Of a DNA stretch of 5,916 nt, positions 1-5,916 are shown piece after piece. The position numbers and the translations under genes are program-made. The stretch is from Candidatus Hodarchaeota archaeon. Lineage in GTDB: Archaea; Asgardarchaeota; Heimdallarchaeia; Hodarchaeales; Hodarchaeaceae. Where the stretch lies: the NCBI GenBank assembly GCA_016839665.1, contig JAEOTU010000199.1:1-5916 (forward strand). The letters are read 5' to 3'. The stretch's first letter is position 1, and each line of letters opens with the position of its first letter. The notes under the pieces were generated by a model, which ran no database searches, was not told the DNA's origin, and saw only the letters and a list, made by a program, of their open reading frames with translations.

Positions 1-271
1 ATGCTTCTTGTCCAGGAGGAAATAACGGACTAACCAGTAATACGCATAAGGGAATGATATTAGCAAATGAAAAGAAGTATATTTCATTTAAAGTAGCTTT
101 TACGTCTATATAGTATAAGAGTTTCAGGAAATAAAAAATTGTGATCGTAGTATAGAATGTTAGAAATATTAGACTTAATGCGATATTATCCTCATCTCTA
201 ATGAAAAAGAATATACTTGCTGCGAGACCCATGAGGAAAACAAAATAAGCAATTGAATGTCGTGAAACGAT
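1..271 (-). CDS. Multi-pass membrane protein, N-terminal part (cut by window edge), possible paralogue of the upstream RING membrane protein
   Basis: About 90 codons are open on the minus strand and run off the left edge. The translation begins IVSRHSIAYFVFLMG and has three hydrophobic segments, at about residues 7-23, 31-50 and 66-84. The upstream RING protein has the same layout: x-V-x-R at the N-terminus, then three helices at nearly the same positions. Residue identity is low, so paralogy is plausible but not proven. The start is odd. A strong GGAGGT (284-279) sits 7 bases before ATC at 271-269, exactly where the neighbour's first residue aligns. There is no in-frame ATG, GTG or TTG between the stop at 304-302 and an ATG at 232-230, and that ATG lies inside the first membrane helix. 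Either an ATC start or an ATG-to-ATC base error fits. It follows the RING gene after 5 bases, so it is probably co-transcribed. Whether it also ends in a RING domain cannot be seen. Confidence 0.72.
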   Translation of the reverse strand, partial: MVSRHSIAYFVFLMGLAASIFFFIRDEDNIALSLIFLTFYTTITIFYFLKLLYYIDVKATLNEIYFFSFANIIPLCVLLVSPLFPPGQEA

Positions 272-276
272 CCTGA

Positions 277-1434
277 TTACCTCCAGCGACTGTTTAGATA
301 ATTATTTTGATACATTTTAATTAATTTCTCATAACTTTTCCCCGAAAGCCGATATAATTTCTCCGTTGAAAGTGGTTTATTGCAACGGGAGCAGATATTC
401 GCCACACTCAACCATTTCTCCAGTTCATGGGAATGTGCAGGATGTCTGCATTGAGGGCATATAACAACCCGTTTATCTGCCTCTGTGGGAAATTCATAAC
501 AAAATATGCAACGAAAATCATCTTCTGTTAAATGTTGGCCCACAGGTATGAGTTTTGAAAGAATAGCTGGAGATATTTTTTCTATACGGGTTATATTTAC
601 CCCTGTGTCTATTCCTGGAACAACTTTCACTGAACTATGAGCTGAGGTTCGTACTCTGCTCATTGTCTCGGGTGAACTTGGTCGTACTACTGTCGACAGA
701 GAATTTCGAGAAGGTTGTGGTTGTCTACTCGGTCGTGAAGATATTTGGGGTGCTCTGTTTCGACTAGTCTGTCTAGGCGATGATTGTTGAAGTCTTCTAT
801 CAACATGTATTCTACGGATTGGTACTAATATGATCTTTAATATATAATGTTGAACAAATAGAATTAAACTTATTGAAATAAACCCTAATCCACTGAGTTC
901 TATAGATCCTGTTTGGATCCAATAGAAACCTAAACTTACAAACATCCCGACATTATATAGAATAACAAATTCATTTTGATACTTCTTTCTAAAGACGAAA
1001 ACCACAGGATAACGTCCAGAATAATATCGTTGGATAAGTATTAACAGGAAAATGAAGGGTAGTAATACAAAAAATACGCTAAATAGATTTAGAAATAAAA
1101 AAAATCTATCTACATTTAGAAAATTAATATCAAGTGTCATTTCAAGAAGAGATGTTTGAAGAAAACCATCTTCTCCTAATGAAGCTTGTTGAGCGAGTAA
1201 TGTTCCCCCTAAGGCAATCAATGATGGAATTACGATGAATACAGCAGAAGCAATTGGTGCATTAAAACGTTGAAAGTATCGCCACTCATCAAATAATTTA
1301 ATAGATGAAACAATTACTAAAGTAATATAAAAGATGGTTAGAGCGACTTCTGCTTGTTGTTCAGTAATTAATGTGAGTACCGTAAAAACAATTCCCACAG
1401 CACAAATGGAAAGATATGTATTCCGTCCAACCAA
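277..1434 (-). CDS. Membrane-anchored RING-type ubiquitin ligase (E3) candidate
   Basis: This 385-residue protein has about six hydrophobic helices (residues ~5-24, 29-47, 59-81, 110-135, 155-174, 180-205). A basic Ser/Arg/Gln/Pro-rich linker follows (~206-260), then a C-terminal zinc domain (~305-355). The zinc domain shows C309-x2-C312, C326-x2-C329, H331, H334, H336, W341-L342 and C348-x2-C351. The C-x-H-x-x-H and the Trp-Leu after it match a RING-H2 finger, but the usual sixth ligand position is Glu337, and H336 or C326 may substitute. RING proteins bind a charged E2 and direct ubiquitin transfer. The clustering with E1, E2 and modifier genes supports that role at the cell membrane, with the RING presumably cytosolic. 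The start is TTG at 1434, preceded by TGAGGT 10 bases upstream, 18 bases after the JAMM stop. Eukaryotic multi-pass membrane RING ligases have a similar overall plan, but homology of the membrane part is not claimed. Confidence 0.85.
   Translation of the reverse strand: MVGRNTYLSICAVGIVFTVLTLITEQQAEVALTIFYITLVIVSSIKLFDEWRYFQRFNAPIASAVFIVIPSLIALGGTLLAQQASLGEDGFLQTSLLEMTLDINFLNVDRFFLFLNLFSVFFVLLPFIFLLILIQRYYSGRYPVVFVFRKKYQNEFVILYNVGMFVSLGFYWIQTGSIELSGLGFISISLILFVQHYILKIILVPIRRIHVDRRLQQSSPRQTSRNRAPQISSRPSRQPQPSRNSLSTVVRPSSPETMSRVRTSAHSSVKVVPGIDTGVNITRIEKISPAILSKLIPVGQHLTEDDFRCIFCYEFPTEADKRVVICPQCRHPAHSHELEKWLSVANICSRCNKPLSTEKLYRLSGKSYEKLIKMYQNNYLNSRWR
279..284 (-). promoter_or_regulatory. Strong ribosome-binding site GGAGGT of the left-edge membrane gene
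   Basis: On the minus strand GGAGGT overlaps the TAA stop of the RING gene and lies 7 bases before the ATC codon at 271. It supports translation starting near 271 rather than at the downstream ATG at 232, which is 46 bases away. Confidence 0.65.
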
Positions 1435-1444
1435 CTAGATTTAA

Positions 1445-1450
1445 ACCTCA
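1445..1450 (-). promoter_or_regulatory. Ribosome-binding site TGAGGT supporting the TTG start of the RING gene
   Basis: TGAGGT on the minus strand lies just after the JAMM stop codon and 10 bases before TTG at 1434. The first two codons read Leu/Met-Val, and no ATG lies in a better position. Confidence 0.55.
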
Positions 1451-1452
1451 CA

Positions 1453-2379
1453 TCATTTTTCATGGTCATATTCTAAAAACATACGGCCCTTCTCCTCTGT
1501 GAGAGGAAGGAGCGTATTTATTATTTCAGGAAGACTTTCTAAGGGGCAATTCAATACCCTATAATGAGGTTCTTCCCATGTTTTCATATCTTCCTTTAAA
1601 CGAAAGATTTTGAAACCATAAGAACTATTGGAAATCTTTGTAGGGTCAATAACCAAAGCAATAGGGGCAGTAATCTGTGAATTCCGTGCTCCAAGTCGTT
1701 GATAACGAACTTGAGTCTCATAATCCGTTTGACTCATGAATGCTCCATATGAAGGATGTGAATGGTACCATCCAAGAATAATTTGGTTTTTATTATGAGA
1801 TTTAATCTCATTATAAACTCTAACCATAGATTGTGGGTCGTGAATCTGAGTATTCACGTTTGTACCATGCCCAATCGGAAAAGCATCTTCTATAACTAAG
1901 CAGGCTAATGGTGTATCATTACTTTCTATATGACCTGTAAGGAGACCAATCACCTCTATCCAATCTCTTTGGGGTACGTCTGGATTTGCATATTTTAACG
2001 CGTGTAGAGCTAGTTTTATATAGGCTTTAAGATGAATTTTCACTCGAGAAGTATCTGATTCGGGGTTTAAGTCATTCAAACTTAAATCAACACTTTCTAA
2101 GTCCTCTAAGATATTCTGTTTTTGATGTTCCCCCTTTTCAATAGATTCAGATTTAGGGGAAGATTTTTTATCTAGTCTTGAAGTAATTAAATGGGACGGA
2201 ACTATTTGTATTTCTTTGCTTGTTAAACTTTCAAAATCCGTATTAGGCTGATAATTAAAGGTAGGTACTTTAAATGTAAAGGAAAAAGTCTCCGGATCGA
2301 AGGTTAAGGAAAGATCTCTAAGTAATAATTCGAAAATGTTCTTTAAGGCCTTTTTCTCTTCTACCATTTTTTTAACCAT
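1453..2379 (-). CDS. Rpn11-like JAMM/MPN+ metalloprotease, candidate deubiquitinase and modifier-processing enzyme
   Basis: This 308-residue protein has a complete JAMM zinc-protease motif: E142 in IEVIGLLTG, H206-x-H208-P in GWYHSHP, then S216 and D219. The stretch from about residue 112 to 260 follows the order seen in proteasomal Rpn11: an N-terminal helix, E-V-x-G-L, a G-W-Y-H-S-H-P core, and a V-I-D-P strand at 243-246. H206, H208 and D219 should bind zinc and E142 should activate water, hydrolysing isopeptide or peptide bonds after the modifier C-terminus. Residues 1-110 form an extra, charged N-terminal region not found in Rpn11. It has a short hydrophobic helix at ~10-25 and a probably disordered section at ~65-110. 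The gene lies 19 bases after the E2 gene. The ribosome-binding site is weak, and a second Met at residue 5 is an alternative start. Inferred roles are removing the tail of the second modifier and deconjugation. Confidence 0.93.
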   Translation of the reverse strand: MVKKMVEEKKALKNIFELLLRDLSLTFDPETFSFTFKVPTFNYQPNTDFESLTSKEIQIVPSHLITSRLDKKSSPKSESIEKGEHQKQNILEDLESVDLSLNDLNPESDTSRVKIHLKAYIKLALHALKYANPDVPQRDWIEVIGLLTGHIESNDTPLACLVIEDAFPIGHGTNVNTQIHDPQSMVRVYNEIKSHNKNQIILGWYHSHPSYGAFMSQTDYETQVRYQRLGARNSQITAPIALVIDPTKISNSSYGFKIFRLKEDMKTWEEPHYRVLNCPLESLPEIINTLLPLTEEKGRMFLEYDHEK

Positions 2380-2398
2380 TTGCCATTAATCTTGGTTC

Positions 2399-2926
2399 TC
2401 ACCATTTCTTATTTGCATATTTTTTGGTTATCTTGCGAGCTTTTGTAATGAAATTCTTCCTATTGCTTAAATACTCTTGAGCTGCCTTTTTATTGAATAC
2501 ATCATGGGGATTTGTGTAAGCTGTATCAATATTGAACATAGCAAGAATCGAATATATGATTGTACCAATGTTCTTCGATGGAGACCAACCATCTGGTCTT
2601 CCGATTAAGTCAGGGTCAACAAGAGCTAAGCAAATATTCCGTTTCCCCTTATACTCATCAGGTTTCGGCCAAAAGTTTGGATGCCAAATTGGTGTGTGCA
2701 AACGAACGAATGGGGGAGAATAGGGATAATTTGGTCCAAAATTAACTTCTAACTTGAATTTTCCTTTCTCGTACGGAGTTCCTTTAGGCCCCTCTAGAAG
2801 GACTGCAAGGTGTTCAACTGATTTTTTCCCACCTGGGAATGCTTTTAGTTGTTTGACAGTTTTTTGCTTATATAACTTCTTTAATTGATTATAATCATCA
2901 GCAATCCTTTTAATACGTATAGACAT
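2399..2926 (-). CDS. E2 ubiquitin-conjugating enzyme (UBC fold)
   Basis: This 175-residue protein spans a full UBC domain (~1-155). The N-terminal helix 1 is basic, as expected for E1 binding. YPYSPP at 67-72 is the usual Pro-rich turn, HPN lies at 82-84, and the catalytic cysteine is C99 in NICLALV. GWSPS at 113-117 corresponds to the conserved Trp-Ser-Pro loop that contacts RING ligases. D142 in NPHD sits where an active-site aspartate is found in UBE2D-type enzymes. It should accept the modifier from the E1 as a thioester and pass it on with the RING protein. Compared with UBE2D, the spacing from HPN to Cys (15 versus 8 residues) and from Cys to the Trp (15 versus 8) are each about 7 residues longer, so the active site is framed by two insertions. 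The C-terminus is Lys-rich. A GGAGGT lies 8 bases before the ATG, and the gene follows the E1 by 17 bases. Confidence 0.96.
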   Translation of the reverse strand: MSIRIKRIADDYNQLKKLYKQKTVKQLKAFPGGKKSVEHLAVLLEGPKGTPYEKGKFKLEVNFGPNYPYSPPFVRLHTPIWHPNFWPKPDEYKGKRNICLALVDPDLIGRPDGWSPSKNIGTIIYSILAMFNIDTAYTNPHDVFNKKAAQEYLSNRKNFITKARKITKKYANKKW

Positions 2927-2934
2927 GTAATATA

Positions 2935-2940
2935 ACCTCC
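2935..2940 (-). promoter_or_regulatory. Strong ribosome-binding site GGAGGT of the E2 gene
   Basis: GGAGGT on the minus strand lies 8 bases before the ATG at 2926 and just after the E1 stop. It is the best site in the ubiquitin operon and fixes the E2 start. Confidence 0.8.
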
Positions 2941-2943
2941 TAT

Positions 2944-4194
2944 TTACATAATTTTCAGTGTTAAATAGATTTGAGCGCCATCCTCAAATCCTGTGACTAA
3001 GATTGTCTCATAATTTCGAAGTTTAGCCTCAGAAAGGGTTAAGTTCCAATCAACCTCATTAACCTCTGAAGAGTCAATTCGAAAGATACTTGGGGAAAAC
3101 TCTGGGTCGATTAGGAATTTTTTTTCTTGTCCTAATTTTGTTATAATTTTCTTCAATTGAAATTTTGGCTTAACTTTTATTTTGTAAAGGGGTGTACGAG
3201 TATTACCACACATGGCGCAACTTGAATTCCTTGGTTTCTCCATTTCATAGAATTTCCCAGTGAGTCCATTATAGATCACATAATTGAGTTGAAGAGAGCC
3301 CAATTTCTTTTCATTCTCGGGAGTATGTAGATGGTGGAGGACTTTCACAGCTTCTTGAGATTGCAATGAAGCCATTACGCAATTTATAGTGATTACTGTG
3401 GCTTCATGATTATCAACTATTTGAATAACCTGACCTGTAGAGAACGGTTGAGATACAGGAAAATGGGCTTTAAGCAAGGTGTTTGCATATTTCTTAACTT
3501 CCTCTATTTCTTTCGGTTTCAATATATCAACAGGCCGTCCATGATTCTGTTCAAAGTGTAATTGCCCTTTTAAAATGCAATGTGCAGGTTTACGTGGCAC
3601 ACCAACTAATGTACAAGCACCCAACTGATCTTGTTCGCGTTCTGTTAAAGGATCACATTCTAAACACGCGTTACTGAAAGGAAACACGCAATAGACGTGG
3701 CCATTATAAGCTGCTGTTCCTGCATCAATTAAGGGTTTATGATTGTGAATAGCTCTTCGATTTAATTCTGATCGGGCTTCAATTGAGTCTAAACCTGCAA
3801 TATAGAGATCCGCTTCATGATATAGGTGGGGGGGAAGGTCTTGTAAAGCACAATTGTATCCTTCGATTGTAATAAAAGGATTCATTTCTCTTAGTCGTTT
3901 AGCAGCGAATTCTGCCTTAAATACTCCTTCTGGTGCTCCAATAAATAGTACTTGTCGGTTAAGATTAGAATATTCAACTGTATCAAGATCCACTAGAATT
4001 AATTTTCCGATACTGACCATTGCTAAATTCTTAGCGACTTCGACTCCAAGTCCACCAATCCCGACAACTAGAACAGTACTTTTCTTTAAAGTTTCTTGTC
4101 TCCATCCTGGAAGGCGAAATTGTCGATCAAAGCGTCTCTTTTCTTCGTCAGTAAATTTTTCACTAGTGAAATCTGACACATTTGCCATTTTCAC
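2944..4194 (-). CDS. E1-like modifier-activating enzyme, UBA3-type
   Basis: This protein of about 416 residues is built like UBA3, the catalytic half of the NEDD8 E1. Its ThiF/MoeB adenylation fold has RFDRQFRLPG (21-30, with an arginine finger), GIGGLG at 45-50, D69 and D71, SNLNRQ at 76-81, K93 and D136. The catalytic Cys is C194 in a CT-x4-P-x2-P-x-HC pattern (194-206) typical of UBA2/UBA3. Zinc is probably bound by C177/C180 and C326/C329. Residues ~335-416 resemble the C-terminal ubiquitin-fold domain that recruits E2. It should adenylate the modifier C-terminus, form a thioester on C194 and transfer to the E2. No separate adenylation partner is seen, so a homodimer is likely. The E2 and modifier neighbours argue against a MoeB/ThiF sulfur-transfer role. 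The outer start is GTG at 4194, 6 bases after the modifier stop. ATG at 4188, two codons in, is equally possible, and neither has a clear ribosome-binding site. Confidence 0.96.
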   Translation of the reverse strand: MKMANVSDFTSEKFTDEEKRRFDRQFRLPGWRQETLKKSTVLVVGIGGLGVEVAKNLAMVSIGKLILVDLDTVEYSNLNRQVLFIGAPEGVFKAEFAAKRLREMNPFITIEGYNCALQDLPPHLYHEADLYIAGLDSIEARSELNRRAIHNHKPLIDAGTAAYNGHVYCVFPFSNACLECDPLTEREQDQLGACTLVGVPRKPAHCILKGQLHFEQNHGRPVDILKPKEIEEVKKYANTLLKAHFPVSQPFSTGQVIQIVDNHEATVITINCVMASLQSQEAVKVLHHLHTPENEKKLGSLQLNYVIYNGLTGKFYEMEKPRNSSCAMCGNTRTPLYKIKVKPKFQLKKIITKLGQEKKFLIDPEFSPSIFRIDSSEVNEVDWNLTLSEAKLRNYETILVTGFEDGAQIYLTLKIM

Positions 4195-4200
4195 TCAACT

Positions 4201-4548
4201 TCAAAAATCGAATCCTGCCGTTGAAACAGGAATAATCAAGCATTCTAAACCATTTTCAATATCATAATTAGATAACACATCATCTCTATCAAGGGTACGA
4301 CCACTGATAGAGATATGAAAATCCTGTGGGTTAAGACCGAAAATTCCTCCAAGTGTCTCCTTTAATTCTGGAACTCCCATTTCAGGATCAACTGTGAGTT
4401 TTTCTAATTTTTCACCTGGTCCTATCGTCGATCTGAAGAACAGTGTTATACGGGCCCCACTAGGCACTTTGGTTCTCATTTGAGTTTCTACAATCTCTTC
4501 TTCCTCTTCTTCGATTTCCAATTCATCAAAATCCTCATTTTCAGACAT
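4201..4548 (-). CDS. Ubiquitin-like modifier precursor (second copy, with C-terminal tail FDF)
   Basis: This is a 115-residue protein with an acidic N-terminal tail (1-30, including a run of six Glu), a beta-grasp domain (~33-110) and a C-terminus reading STAG-FDF. It is about half identical to the first modifier across the fold, sharing IFGLNP, DFH, SGRTLD-type and IP-x-STAG segments. The GRTLD and NYDIENG stretches align with GKQLE and DYNIQKE of ubiquitin. The three residues after Ala-Gly imply cleavage to expose the conjugating glycine, presumably by the adjacent JAMM protease. The reading frame stays open to 4671, but I chose ATG 4548. It gives MSENEDFDEL, which matches MSDFEDLDF of the first modifier, and a GGAG lies 9 bases upstream. 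A candidate TATA box at 4593-4600 would also put the transcript start inside the longer frame. It is the first gene of the main operon, 6 bases before the E1. Confidence 0.92.
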   Translation of the reverse strand: MSENEDFDELEIEEEEEEIVETQMRTKVPSGARITLFFRSTIGPGEKLEKLTVDPEMGVPELKETLGGIFGLNPQDFHISISGRTLDRDDVLSNYDIENGLECLIIPVSTAGFDF

Positions 4549-4591
4549 TGAATAAGACTCCATTCCAATTTTTTTCGTTGGAAGCATTTTA

Positions 4592-4602
4592 CTATATTTA
4601 AT
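4592..4602 (-). promoter_or_regulatory. Candidate archaeal TATA box for the modifier-E1-E2-JAMM-RING operon
   Basis: ATTAAATATAG on the minus strand ends about 44 bases before the ATG at 4548. With the usual archaeal spacing, transcription would begin near 4570, giving a leader of about 20 bases. The upstream element is not clearly purine-rich, so this is a moderate call. It implies that the second modifier operon can be expressed apart from the first modifier. Confidence 0.45.
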
Positions 4603-4743
4603 CTGGTAAAAAAGCTTTAGAGAACTACTCTTTACTGGTGAATAAATATCGAGTTCAATCATTTTAATCATTCCTAATTAGTGTGTGATTTCATTTTCGA
4701 GAAATTTCGATTTTGGATATCGTGTTAATCCTTCTGTAGTAAT

Positions 4744-4806
4744 GAGAAAGAAAGGATGATTTCTTTCTCTCAGTTTACAAAACCGAGAAAGAAAGCCTCT
4801 CATCCT
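4744..4806 (-). terminator. Long hairpin with a duplicated third arm after the first modifier gene; candidate terminator or RNA-processing element
   Basis: On the minus strand, AGGATGA (4806-4800, including the stop codon) pairs with TCATCCT (4759-4753). Inside it, TTTCTTTCTC (4794-4785) pairs with GAGAAAGAAA (4769-4760). Together this is about 17 base pairs with a 5-base bulge. A second TTTCTTTCTC copy (4753-4744) follows directly. It could act as the pyrimidine-rich termination tract, or it could compete for the same GAGAAAGAAA arm and form a 10-bp hairpin with a 6-base loop. Archaeal termination mainly needs U-rich tracts, so the hairpin may instead stabilise the short upstream mRNA or be a processing site. 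Confidence 0.5.
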
Positions 4807-5147
4807 GCTGTACTATGGGGAATCAAAAGAATTTCGTCGCCATTATCGATACTATAGTCGCCAATGGGAGCTGATTCATCTAAAGTGCGACCAGCGTGAC
4901 TTAAGTGAAAATCATTGGGATTCAAGCCAAATATGTTGGCTAAGGTGTCTCTGACATCTCTAACTGGAGTATTCTCTCCTACACTGAGTTTTTCGGTTCG
5001 TTCAGGTCCAACAGTAGATTTAAAAAATACATTCTTCTTTGGTCCTGCTGTAATGCCAGTAATTGGAGTCTTAGATTGTGTAGGGGTTTTAGATTGAATT
5101 ATTGTTTGTTCTTCTACATTAAAGTCTAAATCTTCAAAATCACTCAT
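4800..5147 (-). CDS. Ubiquitin-like modifier (first copy, mature-ended STAG)
   Basis: This 115-residue protein has a flexible N-terminal tail (1-36, acidic start, then QSKTP twice at 18-22 and 24-28). A beta-grasp fold follows (~37-115) and ends exactly at Ser-Thr-Ala-Gly. AGRTLDES aligns with AGKQLEDG of ubiquitin, and DYSIDNG aligns with DYNIQKE. No residue follows the terminal Gly, so it would be ready for E1 activation without processing. The usual Gly-Gly is Ala-Gly. The position of ubiquitin Ile44 is Ser, and Arg72 is His. All six lysines (20, 26, 37, 38, 43, 53) lie in the tail or first hairpin, so no Lys48 or Lys63 equivalent exists. The long tail recalls SUMO, but the sequence is not SUMO. 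It has its own promoter region and lies 251 bases before the second modifier, suggesting separate control of dose. The start is ATG with a weak GTGAT upstream. Confidence 0.93.
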   Translation of the reverse strand: MSDFEDLDFNVEEQTIIQSKTPTQSKTPITGITAGPKKNVFFKSTVGPERTEKLSVGENTPVRDVRDTLANIFGLNPNDFHLSHAGRTLDESAPIGDYSIDNGDEILLIPHSTAG

Positions 5148-5333: not shown

Positions 5334-5744
5334 TTGCCACAGAATGCTCAAAACATCAAAATTTCTAATCGTGCGTGGGAACTTCTCCGATGGGCAAAAT
5401 TTGAGCTTGATGCAAAGTCTTACAGTGACGTTATCATCTTAATGAACAATAAGATACATAATCGGTCAAAAAGTCTTGAAAAAGCTCTATTGACTTTCGA
5501 TGAAGAAAGGCATCGGATTAAATCAAAAACTCCTGATGATGAGGGGAATTCCCGTATATTGCATGAAAAGCCCAAAACAATCTTATTAAGGCCTAATACT
5601 CATAAGATACTGAATCGGTTAAAAATAGAAAGCAATCAACCTGCTTACACTTTTTCTGATGCCATTGAATTCTTAGTTAGAGAAAATAAGGATATTTGGA
5701 ATAACATACCTAAACGCTTGAAAAAAAACAACTTAACTAAATGA
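5334..5744 (+). CDS. Small protein with two ribbon-helix-helix-like segments, probable DNA-binding regulator or antitoxin-like protein
   Basis: This 136-residue protein contains two similar segments of about 35 residues. The first (7-41) reads NIKIS, then a helix with AWELL, then SYSDVI. The second (81-118) reads KTILLRP, then HKILNRL, then TFSDAI. A short strand, a helix and S-x-S-D-x-I is the pattern of archaeal VapB-like and CopG-like ribbon-helix-helix proteins. Two such segments in one chain could fold as a single-chain dimer. No toxin gene follows, since the next gene encodes a small membrane protein, so a transcriptional regulator is as likely as an antitoxin. It is divergent from the modifier locus and shares its intergenic region, which makes it a candidate regulator of that locus or of itself through the 9-bp repeats. 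The linker (42-80) is charged and unremarkable. It starts with TTG and has a good TGAGGT. Confidence 0.7.
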   Translation: MPQNAQNIKISNRAWELLRWAKFELDAKSYSDVIILMNNKIHNRSKSLEKALLTFDEERHRIKSKTPDDEGNSRILHEKPKTILLRPNTHKILNRLKIESNQPAYTFSDAIEFLVRENKDIWNNIPKRLKKNNLTK

Positions 5745-5769: not shown

Positions 5770-5916
5770 ATGTCAGAATCAGATATAGATGCTATTTATG
5801 ATTTAATTGCACGAAATCCCCCAATTTTTGCTATTATTGGCGGAATTTTGATCATTCTGCTCGGAGAATTAATTGATACTGAATTGTTGATCTTCTCCGG
5901 ATGGAGTTCTCTAATC
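5770..5916 (+). CDS. Small membrane protein, N-terminal part (cut by window edge), function unknown
   Basis: Forty-nine codons are open to the last base of the window. After a short acidic start (MSESDIDAIYDLIARNPP) comes a hydrophobic helix at about residues 19-32 with an IIGG core. A second, weaker hydrophobic stretch (38-49) is cut off. The gene has a good ribosome-binding site and starts 25 bases after the ribbon-helix-helix gene on the same strand, so the two are probably one unit. I do not recognise a family from this fragment. Confidence 0.6.
   Translation, partial: MSESDIDAIYDLIARNPPIFAIIGGILIILLGELIDTELLIFSGWSSLI

Follow-up and report, generated by a model that had tools for sequence, protein, structure and literature searches.

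A predicted ubiquitin-like conjugation cluster with Ala-Gly-ended modifiers in Asgard archaea

What kind of protein-tagging system do six adjoining genes of a Hodarchaeota contig encode, and is it a familiar archaeal ubiquitin system or something apart? The window analyzed here, by which we mean the whole stretch of 5,916 nucleotides (positions 1 to 5,916 of contig JAEOTU010000199.1, assembly GCA_016839665.1, Candidatus Hodarchaeota archaeon), carries genes for two ubiquitin-like modifiers, an activating enzyme (E1), a conjugating enzyme (E2), an Rpn11-like metalloprotease of the JAMM type and a membrane protein with a C-terminal RING-like zinc domain. The source lineage belongs to the Asgard archaea, close to the eukaryotes, and the two-tag set is complete and apparently acts at the membrane. 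We conclude, with a probability of about 0.8, that the cluster is a dedicated Asgard ubiquitin-like conjugation system whose modifiers end in alanine-glycine (AG) and are served by their own enzymes, apart from canonical ubiquitin. Conjugation itself we infer from the genes, their residues, the folds and the conservation. The Gly-Gly (GG) end that is usually held to be defining is absent, and we therefore file the system as an AG-ended variant of a ubiquitin-like system.

The six open reading frames (ORFs) all lie on the minus strand, running from window position 5147 down to 277 in the order modifier A, modifier B, E1, E2, JAMM and membrane protein. An earlier note on this DNA had described such a set in one locus, and each ORF is where that note placed it; the catalytic residues it listed (E1 C194, E2 C99, JAMM E142, H206, H208 and D219) are exact in ORF numbering. 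The spacing of 5-19 bases that it gave holds from modifier B through the membrane protein gene (6 bases between modifier B and E1, then 17, 19 and 18) and fails between the two modifiers, which are 128 bases apart. That spacer (window 4672-4799) can form a hairpin, scoring -23.4 compared with -17.1 (standard deviation 3.2) for mononucleotide shuffles, and this may lead to different levels of A and B. The closest named locus is L001 (YT5_056, Hodarchaeota), whose E1 is 94% identical to that of the window.

Modifier A (4800..5147, minus strand; 115 amino acids (aa); Pfam ubiquitin 8.3e-07; 81 homologues) has an acidic tail containing two SKTP motifs (K20 and K26), followed by a beta-grasp domain that ends IPHSTAG without extension. 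Modifier B (4201..4671, minus strand) has the motif MRTKVP in its tail, and ends IPVSTAG followed by FDF. Its ORF spans 156 aa, and its Pfam ubiquitin match of 1.4e-03 lies below the cut-off; the model is a ubiquitin beta-grasp, with predicted local distance difference test values of 87-96 for blocks over residues 71-150, and its best Foldseek match is the Caldiarchaeum ubiquitin (8.4e-08). The true start of B is probably MSENEDF (4201-4548), giving 115 aa as in A, because the corresponding ORFs of loci L004 and L007 have no earlier start codon. Pfam, the fold model and Foldseek together place the modifiers in the ubiquitin beta-grasp family, and neither carries the GG end of a ubiquitin-type modifier.

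The AG end is a property of the family. We gathered relatives' modifier ORFs of fewer than 200 aa with a stop codon, using a profile trained on the family itself, and 115 of 115 end IPxS[TVI]AG plus 0-7 residues (STAG in 100, SIAG in 9, SVAG in 6). The stop follows directly after AG in 72, and GG occurs within the last twelve residues of none of the 115. Among protein-database homologues of modifier A, 76 of 81 have S[TI]AG, and by eye the other five are truncated or off-frame. In Caldiarchaeum, PMC6043591 (Fuchs 2018) reports that the protease CsRpn11 cuts off the ubiquitin tail after GG, and that a Gly77Ala precursor, which has an -AG end, is processed much more slowly than Gly78Ala. The retention of AG taken with this slow processing suggests a matched, partly orthogonal protease, or co-adapted enzymes.

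Loci L001-L011 are termed Hodarchaeales-type from E1 similarity and organism labels. Between such loci the identity of A to A has a median of 91% (86-100, 45 pairs) and that of B to B 81% (72-98, 66 pairs), while A and B of one locus share 51% (48-53, 10 loci). The A group and the B group are supported clades in the modifier tree, and by sequence the two are old paralogues. Loki-type loci likewise contain modifier duplicates, as do three loci of Heimdall type (L017, L023 and L054), and the tree sets all of these apart from the A/B pair. Two of the protein-database homologues, P0002 and P0018, each have two modifiers head to tail, with STAG joined straight to the next acidic tail, like a polyubiquitin precursor. 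We have not used them as evidence; P0002 is labelled partial and P0018 starts inside a domain.

Do the enzymes belong to a conjugation pathway, or to a sulfur-carrier or SAMP-like one in which a MoeB/ThiF-type adenylyltransferase would serve a modifier that is really a sulfur carrier? The E1 (2944..4194, minus strand; ThiF 3.3e-51) has a MoeB-like adenylation core. The best NCBIfam names are MoeB/ThiF, all far below their cut-offs (MoeB 1.1e-37), and MoeB is met again in the profile search (1jw9, 4.7e-42, adenylation core only). Yet in that search, with a profile built from 40 relatives, MoeB ranks after UBA3, the catalytic subunit of the NEDD8 E1, which matches at 1e-50 over positions 31-405. 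The UBA3 alignment takes in the C-terminal part and the half-domain bearing the catalytic cysteine, which is C194, or C192 with the start at MANVSD. We thus regard the protein as a UBA3-like single-chain E1. A sulfur-carrier or SAMP-type E1 would be of ThiF/MoeB type without such a domain, in a pathway having no E2; here a catalytic-type E2 and a RING-like protein stand alongside, and the nine window ORFs scanned gave no rhodanese match. A grouping with sulfur-carrier pathways, which the earlier note had itself raised, was looked for and not seen, the E1 being nearest UBA3 with an E2 adjoining. We consider that explanation extremely improbable.

The E2 (2399..2926, minus strand; 175 aa; UQ_con 1.1e-26) has an HPN motif at 82-84 and the catalytic C99. 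No aligned relative departs from either (33 of 33), and HPN and cysteine are present in all 73 E2 ORFs of at least 100 aa; eukaryotic E2s, Ubc13 and UBE2T among them, are the closest matches to the profile. The JAMM protein (1453..2379, minus strand; JAB 2.5e-15) carries an N-terminal extension of about 105 aa, and has active site residues E142, H206, H208, S216 and D219, of which E, HxH, S and D are invariant in 33/33 aligned sequences. A strict HxHP..S..D pattern misses 2 of 72 JAMM ORFs, one at a contig end and one split, and a strict E.xG.L pattern misses six, in all of which the glutamate is present. The JAMM profile is closest to CsRpn11 (3.8e-24), followed by Rpn11 and CSN5. It is therefore an Rpn11-like JAMM by both active site and nearest relatives.

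How general is the cluster? Named homologues all carry Asgard labels (Hodarchaeales, Hodarchaeota, Heimdallarchaeota, Odinarchaeota, Thorarchaeota, Promethearchaeota and the like) among those listed for modifier A (81), the E1 (best 120 of 779) and the membrane protein (57). A scan with E1 patterns confirmed 111 relatives, and the 80 best of them make up the set of loci used here. By single-linkage BLAST, 78 of the 80 loci have the modifier family, 74 the E2, 73 the JAMM and 68 the membrane RING protein; where genes are missing, the contig is in several cases short or the locus close to its end (e.g. L016, L020, L028 and L030). Genes and residues are retained in relatives down to about 42% E1 identity, and the cluster is therefore more than a chance assembly. 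The order modifier-modifier-E1-E2-JAMM-RING is found in all 11 Hodarchaeales-type loci. Heimdall-type loci have E2-JAMM-RING-TM2-modifier-E1 (12/21), where TM2 is a second membrane protein, and Loki-type and related loci have E1-E2-JAMM-RING (41/48), the E1 being preceded in 23 of the 48 by a modifier, a membrane protein with a ubiquitin-like (UBL) domain on the opposite strand, and a second modifier. The TM2 family occurs in 24 loci, nine of Hodarchaeales type and 15 of Heimdall type. An iterated membrane-RING profile also labels TM2, and BLAST linkage was used to separate the two; an iterated UBL profile likewise labels longer proteins, mostly Loki-type membrane-UBLs of 259-282 aa, for which the 200-aa length filter was used. 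Across 227 genomes of the phylum, strong matches (E about 1e-15 for the modifier profile and 1e-20 for the zinc domain) were found in 109 and 98 genomes respectively, and both in 96; at E <= 0.001 the numbers are 123 and 168.

Since the cluster recurs in this way across the Asgard archaea, the duplicated modifier and the membrane RING protein are not peculiar to the genome of the window. The earlier note had called the system a distinct variant for precisely these two features. Distinct it is, but for other reasons: the AG ends, the coexisting GG systems of its relatives and the K-x-P lysine motif of the tails, the last two of which are described below.

If the cluster were simply a Caldiarchaeum-type ubiquitin system in another Asgard genome, AG would be the neutral drift of GG. 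The parts list is indeed identical, and both the JAMM profile and the modifier fold are closest to Caldiarchaeum proteins. Against this, AG is kept across the family while the residues after it drift, and relatives possess separate GG ubiquitins. We searched ten genomes for the ubiquitin family, of which four are Hodarchaeales-type (G001-G004). In G001, G002 and G003 there is a further ubiquitin ending RTTGG (followed in G002 by FPN), adjoining an E1 of 331-335 aa. By Pfam its neighbourhood in G001 contains an E2, a UEV-type protein, VPS28, EAP30, two Snf7 proteins and an MIT-AAA ATPase, which by sequence is a cluster of the endosomal sorting complexes required for transport (ESCRT); that of G003 resembles it by eye. 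The same three genomes have a third cluster (L111:8528-13312, L114:5959-11407 and L202:2072-7144), comprising a UBL protein ending QIKGG, an E1 of 408-416 aa, an E2, a JAMM and a membrane protein. The membrane protein in L111 has a weak CCDC47 match (1.4e-03, below cut-off). In Heimdall AB125 (G005) and in G006 the ubiquitin ends RTKGG with a single residue after it, and residue 45 of the AB125 canonical GG ubiquitin (locus L083) is valine.

These systems stand apart from that of the window. L003 is the chromosome of a bin with the label Heimdallarchaeota; its modifiers A and B are 21 and 26% identical to the system I ubiquitin of G001. The E2s score about 121-123 bits in system I, 93-95 in the STAG system and 82-84 in the third cluster. 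An E1 tree including 20 of the 81 STAG-system E1s places these 20 in one clade (98/97), apart from the E1s of systems I and II. The human UBA3 and UBA1 rows and a MoeB row of this tree are long-branched and those of system I are split over more than one group, and we rely on it solely for that separation. Thus the separate E1 clades, together with the GG ubiquitins having their own E1 in the same Hodarchaeales-type and Heimdall-type genomes, make a plain Caldiarchaeum-type system improbable here. In its favour, the STAG-system E2 is the only one found with the UQ_con family in the Loki genome G008, where the system may be the main ubiquitin system. We prefer a dedicated AG-ended system; since in relatives it coexists with separate ubiquitin systems, several tagging systems may already run in parallel in cells of this lineage.

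What is the membrane protein? Its model (277..1434, minus strand) comprises six long helices within residues 2-207, a disordered linker of about 75 residues (209-284) and a confident C-terminal domain. In the latter, six cysteines and one histidine (C309, C312, C326, C329, H334, C348 and C351) are invariant in 53/53 aligned sequences, and Ile310, at a putative E2-facing site, is nearly so. The best match of a zinc-domain profile from 32 relatives is the RNF24 RING (2.6e-05), with the RINGs of EL5, RNF4 and RNF165 also in the first ten rows, and the top Foldseek matches of the domain are RING/U-box folds, weak, with E 0.023 at best. Foldseek with the whole protein gave no match at E <= 0.001, making the RING call moderate; with RING/U-box matches weak and the ligand set non-classical, we label the domain RING-like. 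For the RING label of the earlier note, the basis is a profile and a model. Instead of being an E3 ligase, the protein could serve as a zinc-finger adaptor or receptor, reading the modifier or anchoring the enzymes. The incomplete ligand set would accord with such a role, and WDR19/IFT144 among the PDB matches, and UBZ, a zinc ribbon and the IFT121 second zinc finger among the weak Pfam matches, are compatible with it; but RINGs lead in both the profile and fold searches and the gene sits in a conjugation cluster, so that we think an adaptor rather unlikely.

A number of findings weigh against a dedicated conjugation system as we have drawn it, and several concern this same domain. In the 66 ORFs that fit the pattern used, the usual H4 position is Tyr in 43, His in 21 and Phe in 2, and the usual C6 position is Glu in 65 and Ala in one; as we read it, the zinc domain is without the full classical set of RING ligands. 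The single-sequence Pfam matches of the window protein are all below cut-off, and its place in the pathway as an E3 rests on gene neighbourhood. The modifier profile was trained on its own family, and hence the count of 115 out of 115 means that the family is AG-ended, not that other ends are absent; four canonical ubiquitins score no more than 13-14 bits against this profile. L020 showed no modifier, nor did L013, where 21 kb contain the E1, E2, JAMM and membrane RING protein, and at E <= 0.001 the modifier profile has no match in 104 of the 227 phylum genomes. In G004 no canonical ubiquitin was found, the single match being a STAG modifier. Finally, the loci are the best of a larger set and were fetched by E1 peptide patterns, so conservation of the E1 motif is partly built in; L038 has CSLVG in place of CTLVG.

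On balance we favour a complete, probably working cascade of E1, E2, RING and JAMM, as the earlier note had predicted, and one supported by sequence, fold and conservation. Modifier A would be born mature, and modifier B would be trimmed after AG by the JAMM protease. The E1, probably a homodimer, would adenylate the terminal glycine and move the modifier onto its own cysteine, from which it would pass to C99 of the E2. The membrane RING-like protein would then recruit the charged E2 and steer it to substrates at the membrane, and the JAMM could take the modifier off again, making the tagging reversible. The AG end and the dedicated E1, E2 and JAMM would separate this route from the cell's GG systems. 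Most tentatively, the K-x-P lysines of the flexible tails and of locus-encoded partners might be preferred acceptor or docking sites.

The K-x-P motif is strongly enriched. Of the 338 lysines in 114 modifier tails, 217 sit in K-x-P, compared with a mean of 29.1 and a maximum of 44 in composition-keeping shuffles, and 110 tails have at least one. Both tail lysines of window modifier A, and the single tail lysine of B when read from MSENEDF, are in this setting. Nearby genes encode proteins that are otherwise unrelated to the modifiers and rich in the same motif. In 37 Loki-type loci this is a coiled-coil protein, with 117 motifs in all, of which 35 lie close to the N-terminus, 52 close to the C-terminus and 30 elsewhere. 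In 14 Heimdall-type loci it looks disordered, and in seven Hodarchaeales-type loci it is encoded downstream of TM2, with a relative in L007. Judging from L001, the window's own partner would lie outside it. Lysine occupies the position two before proline in 61% of cases in modifier tails (background 12%). The corresponding figures are 63% for the Loki partners (background 20%), 48% for the Heimdall partners (background 26%) and 35% for the Hodarchaeales partners (background 20%), compared with 8% in other genes (background 8%). In a background sample of 60 regions (1.2 Mb) of chromosome G002, just one of 1202 ORFs has at least two matches to [IVLM][KRE]xK[TIVRKEQSN]P, and this protein is the STAG-locus partner; if the pattern is shortened to [STE]K[TIV]P, an unrelated 1160-aa protein also has two copies. 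We dropped the idea that the conserved Thr-Pro is a phosphosite, since the threonine is often Ile, Val or Arg while lysine and proline stay.

Is the lysine an acceptor, or is K-x-P a docking motif for a shared reader, or a by-product of Lys/Pro-rich disordered sequence? The chances that one of the latter two applies are in our view even. The neighbouring proteins are rich in lysine and proline, modifier B of G001/L002 has asparagine in place of the K-x-P lysine, and a docking motif would likewise be expected to be conserved. The excess over shuffled tails and the single long-pattern protein in the G002 sample argue against a by-product, and leave docking untouched.

Other features flank the cluster. 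The start of TM2 (2..232, minus strand), cut by the window edge, is near-identical to the starts of L001:6682-7227 and L003:13951-14496. On the plus strand, 5334..5744 encodes a divergent small VapB-antitoxin-like protein (Pfam VAPB_antitox 3.2e-04, below cut-off) containing RHRIKSKTP; seven homologues beside Hodarchaeales-type loci each have RHRI[KE]xK[TIN]P. At 5770-5916 the window edge truncates an ORF whose beginning includes a hydrophobic stretch. Longer UBL proteins adjoin related loci. L034:3227-4015 and its Loki-type equivalents, on the opposite strand between two modifiers, encode a membrane protein with a C-terminal UBL ending IPSRKK and a weak TRAP-gamma match (8.8e-04, below cut-off). 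L043:15492-16382, L060:6432-7271 and L037:16555-17337 encode proteins of 260-296 aa with an N-terminal CPKC-type motif and a C-terminal UBL, preceded in L043 by repeated IESKEP/IRSKQP motifs. In Borrarchaeum, L077:6330-8072 and L078:1910-3718 encode proteins of 580-602 aa, with UBL ends SRAG or STAG, that adjoin the cluster.

Eukaryotes have many parallel UBL pathways (ubiquitin, NEDD8, SUMO and others), kept separate by matched E1s and C-terminal tails. The boldest reading of our results, which we hold to be doubtful, is that single Hodarchaeales cells run a third, orthogonal pathway beside two of GG type, with AG as its C-terminal code and [IV]-[KRE]-x-K-[TI]-P as an acceptor consensus of its own. 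If true, parallel UBL pathways separated by a C-terminal code would predate the eukaryotes. An acceptor consensus in the disordered tails of the modifiers would permit SUMO-like chains. At the membrane, the membrane RING protein would modify a dedicated set of substrates or scaffolds: the Loki coiled-coil, the Lys/Pro-rich disordered proteins of Heimdall and Hodarchaeales loci and the VapB-like protein, which carry the same consensus. K-x-P, were it an acceptor site, would supply predicted substrates of an Asgard conjugation system.

How does the cluster compare with known systems? By PADLOC matching, with no phylogeny against Bil or CBASS proteins run, it does not fall in the bacterial defence families: relative to the bacterial E1-E2 and JAB models the E1 core and JAMM give partial matches (1.9e-19 and 1.2e-05), the E1 and E2 are separate proteins here, and neither PADLOC nor NCBIfam has a match for the E2, the membrane RING protein or the modifiers. 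SUMO-2/3 has a disordered N-terminal tail with a consensus lysine that can be used for chains, offering an analogy for K-x-P; the motif is another one, however, and the Asgard cluster has an AG end and a JAMM in place of a SENP-type protease. It resembles the NEDD8 pathway in having an E1 closest to UBA3 and a JAMM also near CSN5, and differs from it in having no second E1 subunit and in the modifier end, which is not GG.

The open-licence literature searched, available in part, includes work on Caldiarchaeum (PMC5654768 and PMC6043591), the Asgard ubiquitin-ESCRT study of Hatano 2022 (PMC9192718), a study of ESCRT evolution (PMC10936438), two reviews (PMC12993045 and PMC11354881), Eme 2023 (PMC10307638) and a eukaryogenesis preprint (PMC12338589). 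In the portions available we found no mention of AG-ended modifiers or three parallel systems, nor of K-x-P as an acceptor site giving predicted Asgard substrates. Hatano and colleagues catalogue Asgard E1/E2/ubiquitin clusters, B3_Heim and HeimAB125 included, and some STAG loci may be among these. The Heimdall ubiquitin tested there has Val45 like the AB125 protein of L083, and is thus probably the canonical GG ubiquitin, not the STAG modifier. The Caldiarchaeum subterraneum operon, whose cascade has been reconstituted (PMC5654768), has the same parts as the Asgard cluster: a ubiquitin-fold modifier, an E1 with a Cys domain, an E2, a RING-type protein and an Rpn11-like JAMM that trims the modifier precursor (PMC5654768 and PMC6043591). 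There the single modifier ends in GG, the RING protein (srfp) is small and the JAMM gene is oppositely transcribed. In contrast, the Asgard cluster has two AG-ended modifiers with K-x-P tails, a six-helix membrane RING-like protein and a JAMM gene inside the gene run, and the genomes of its relatives hold separate GG systems.

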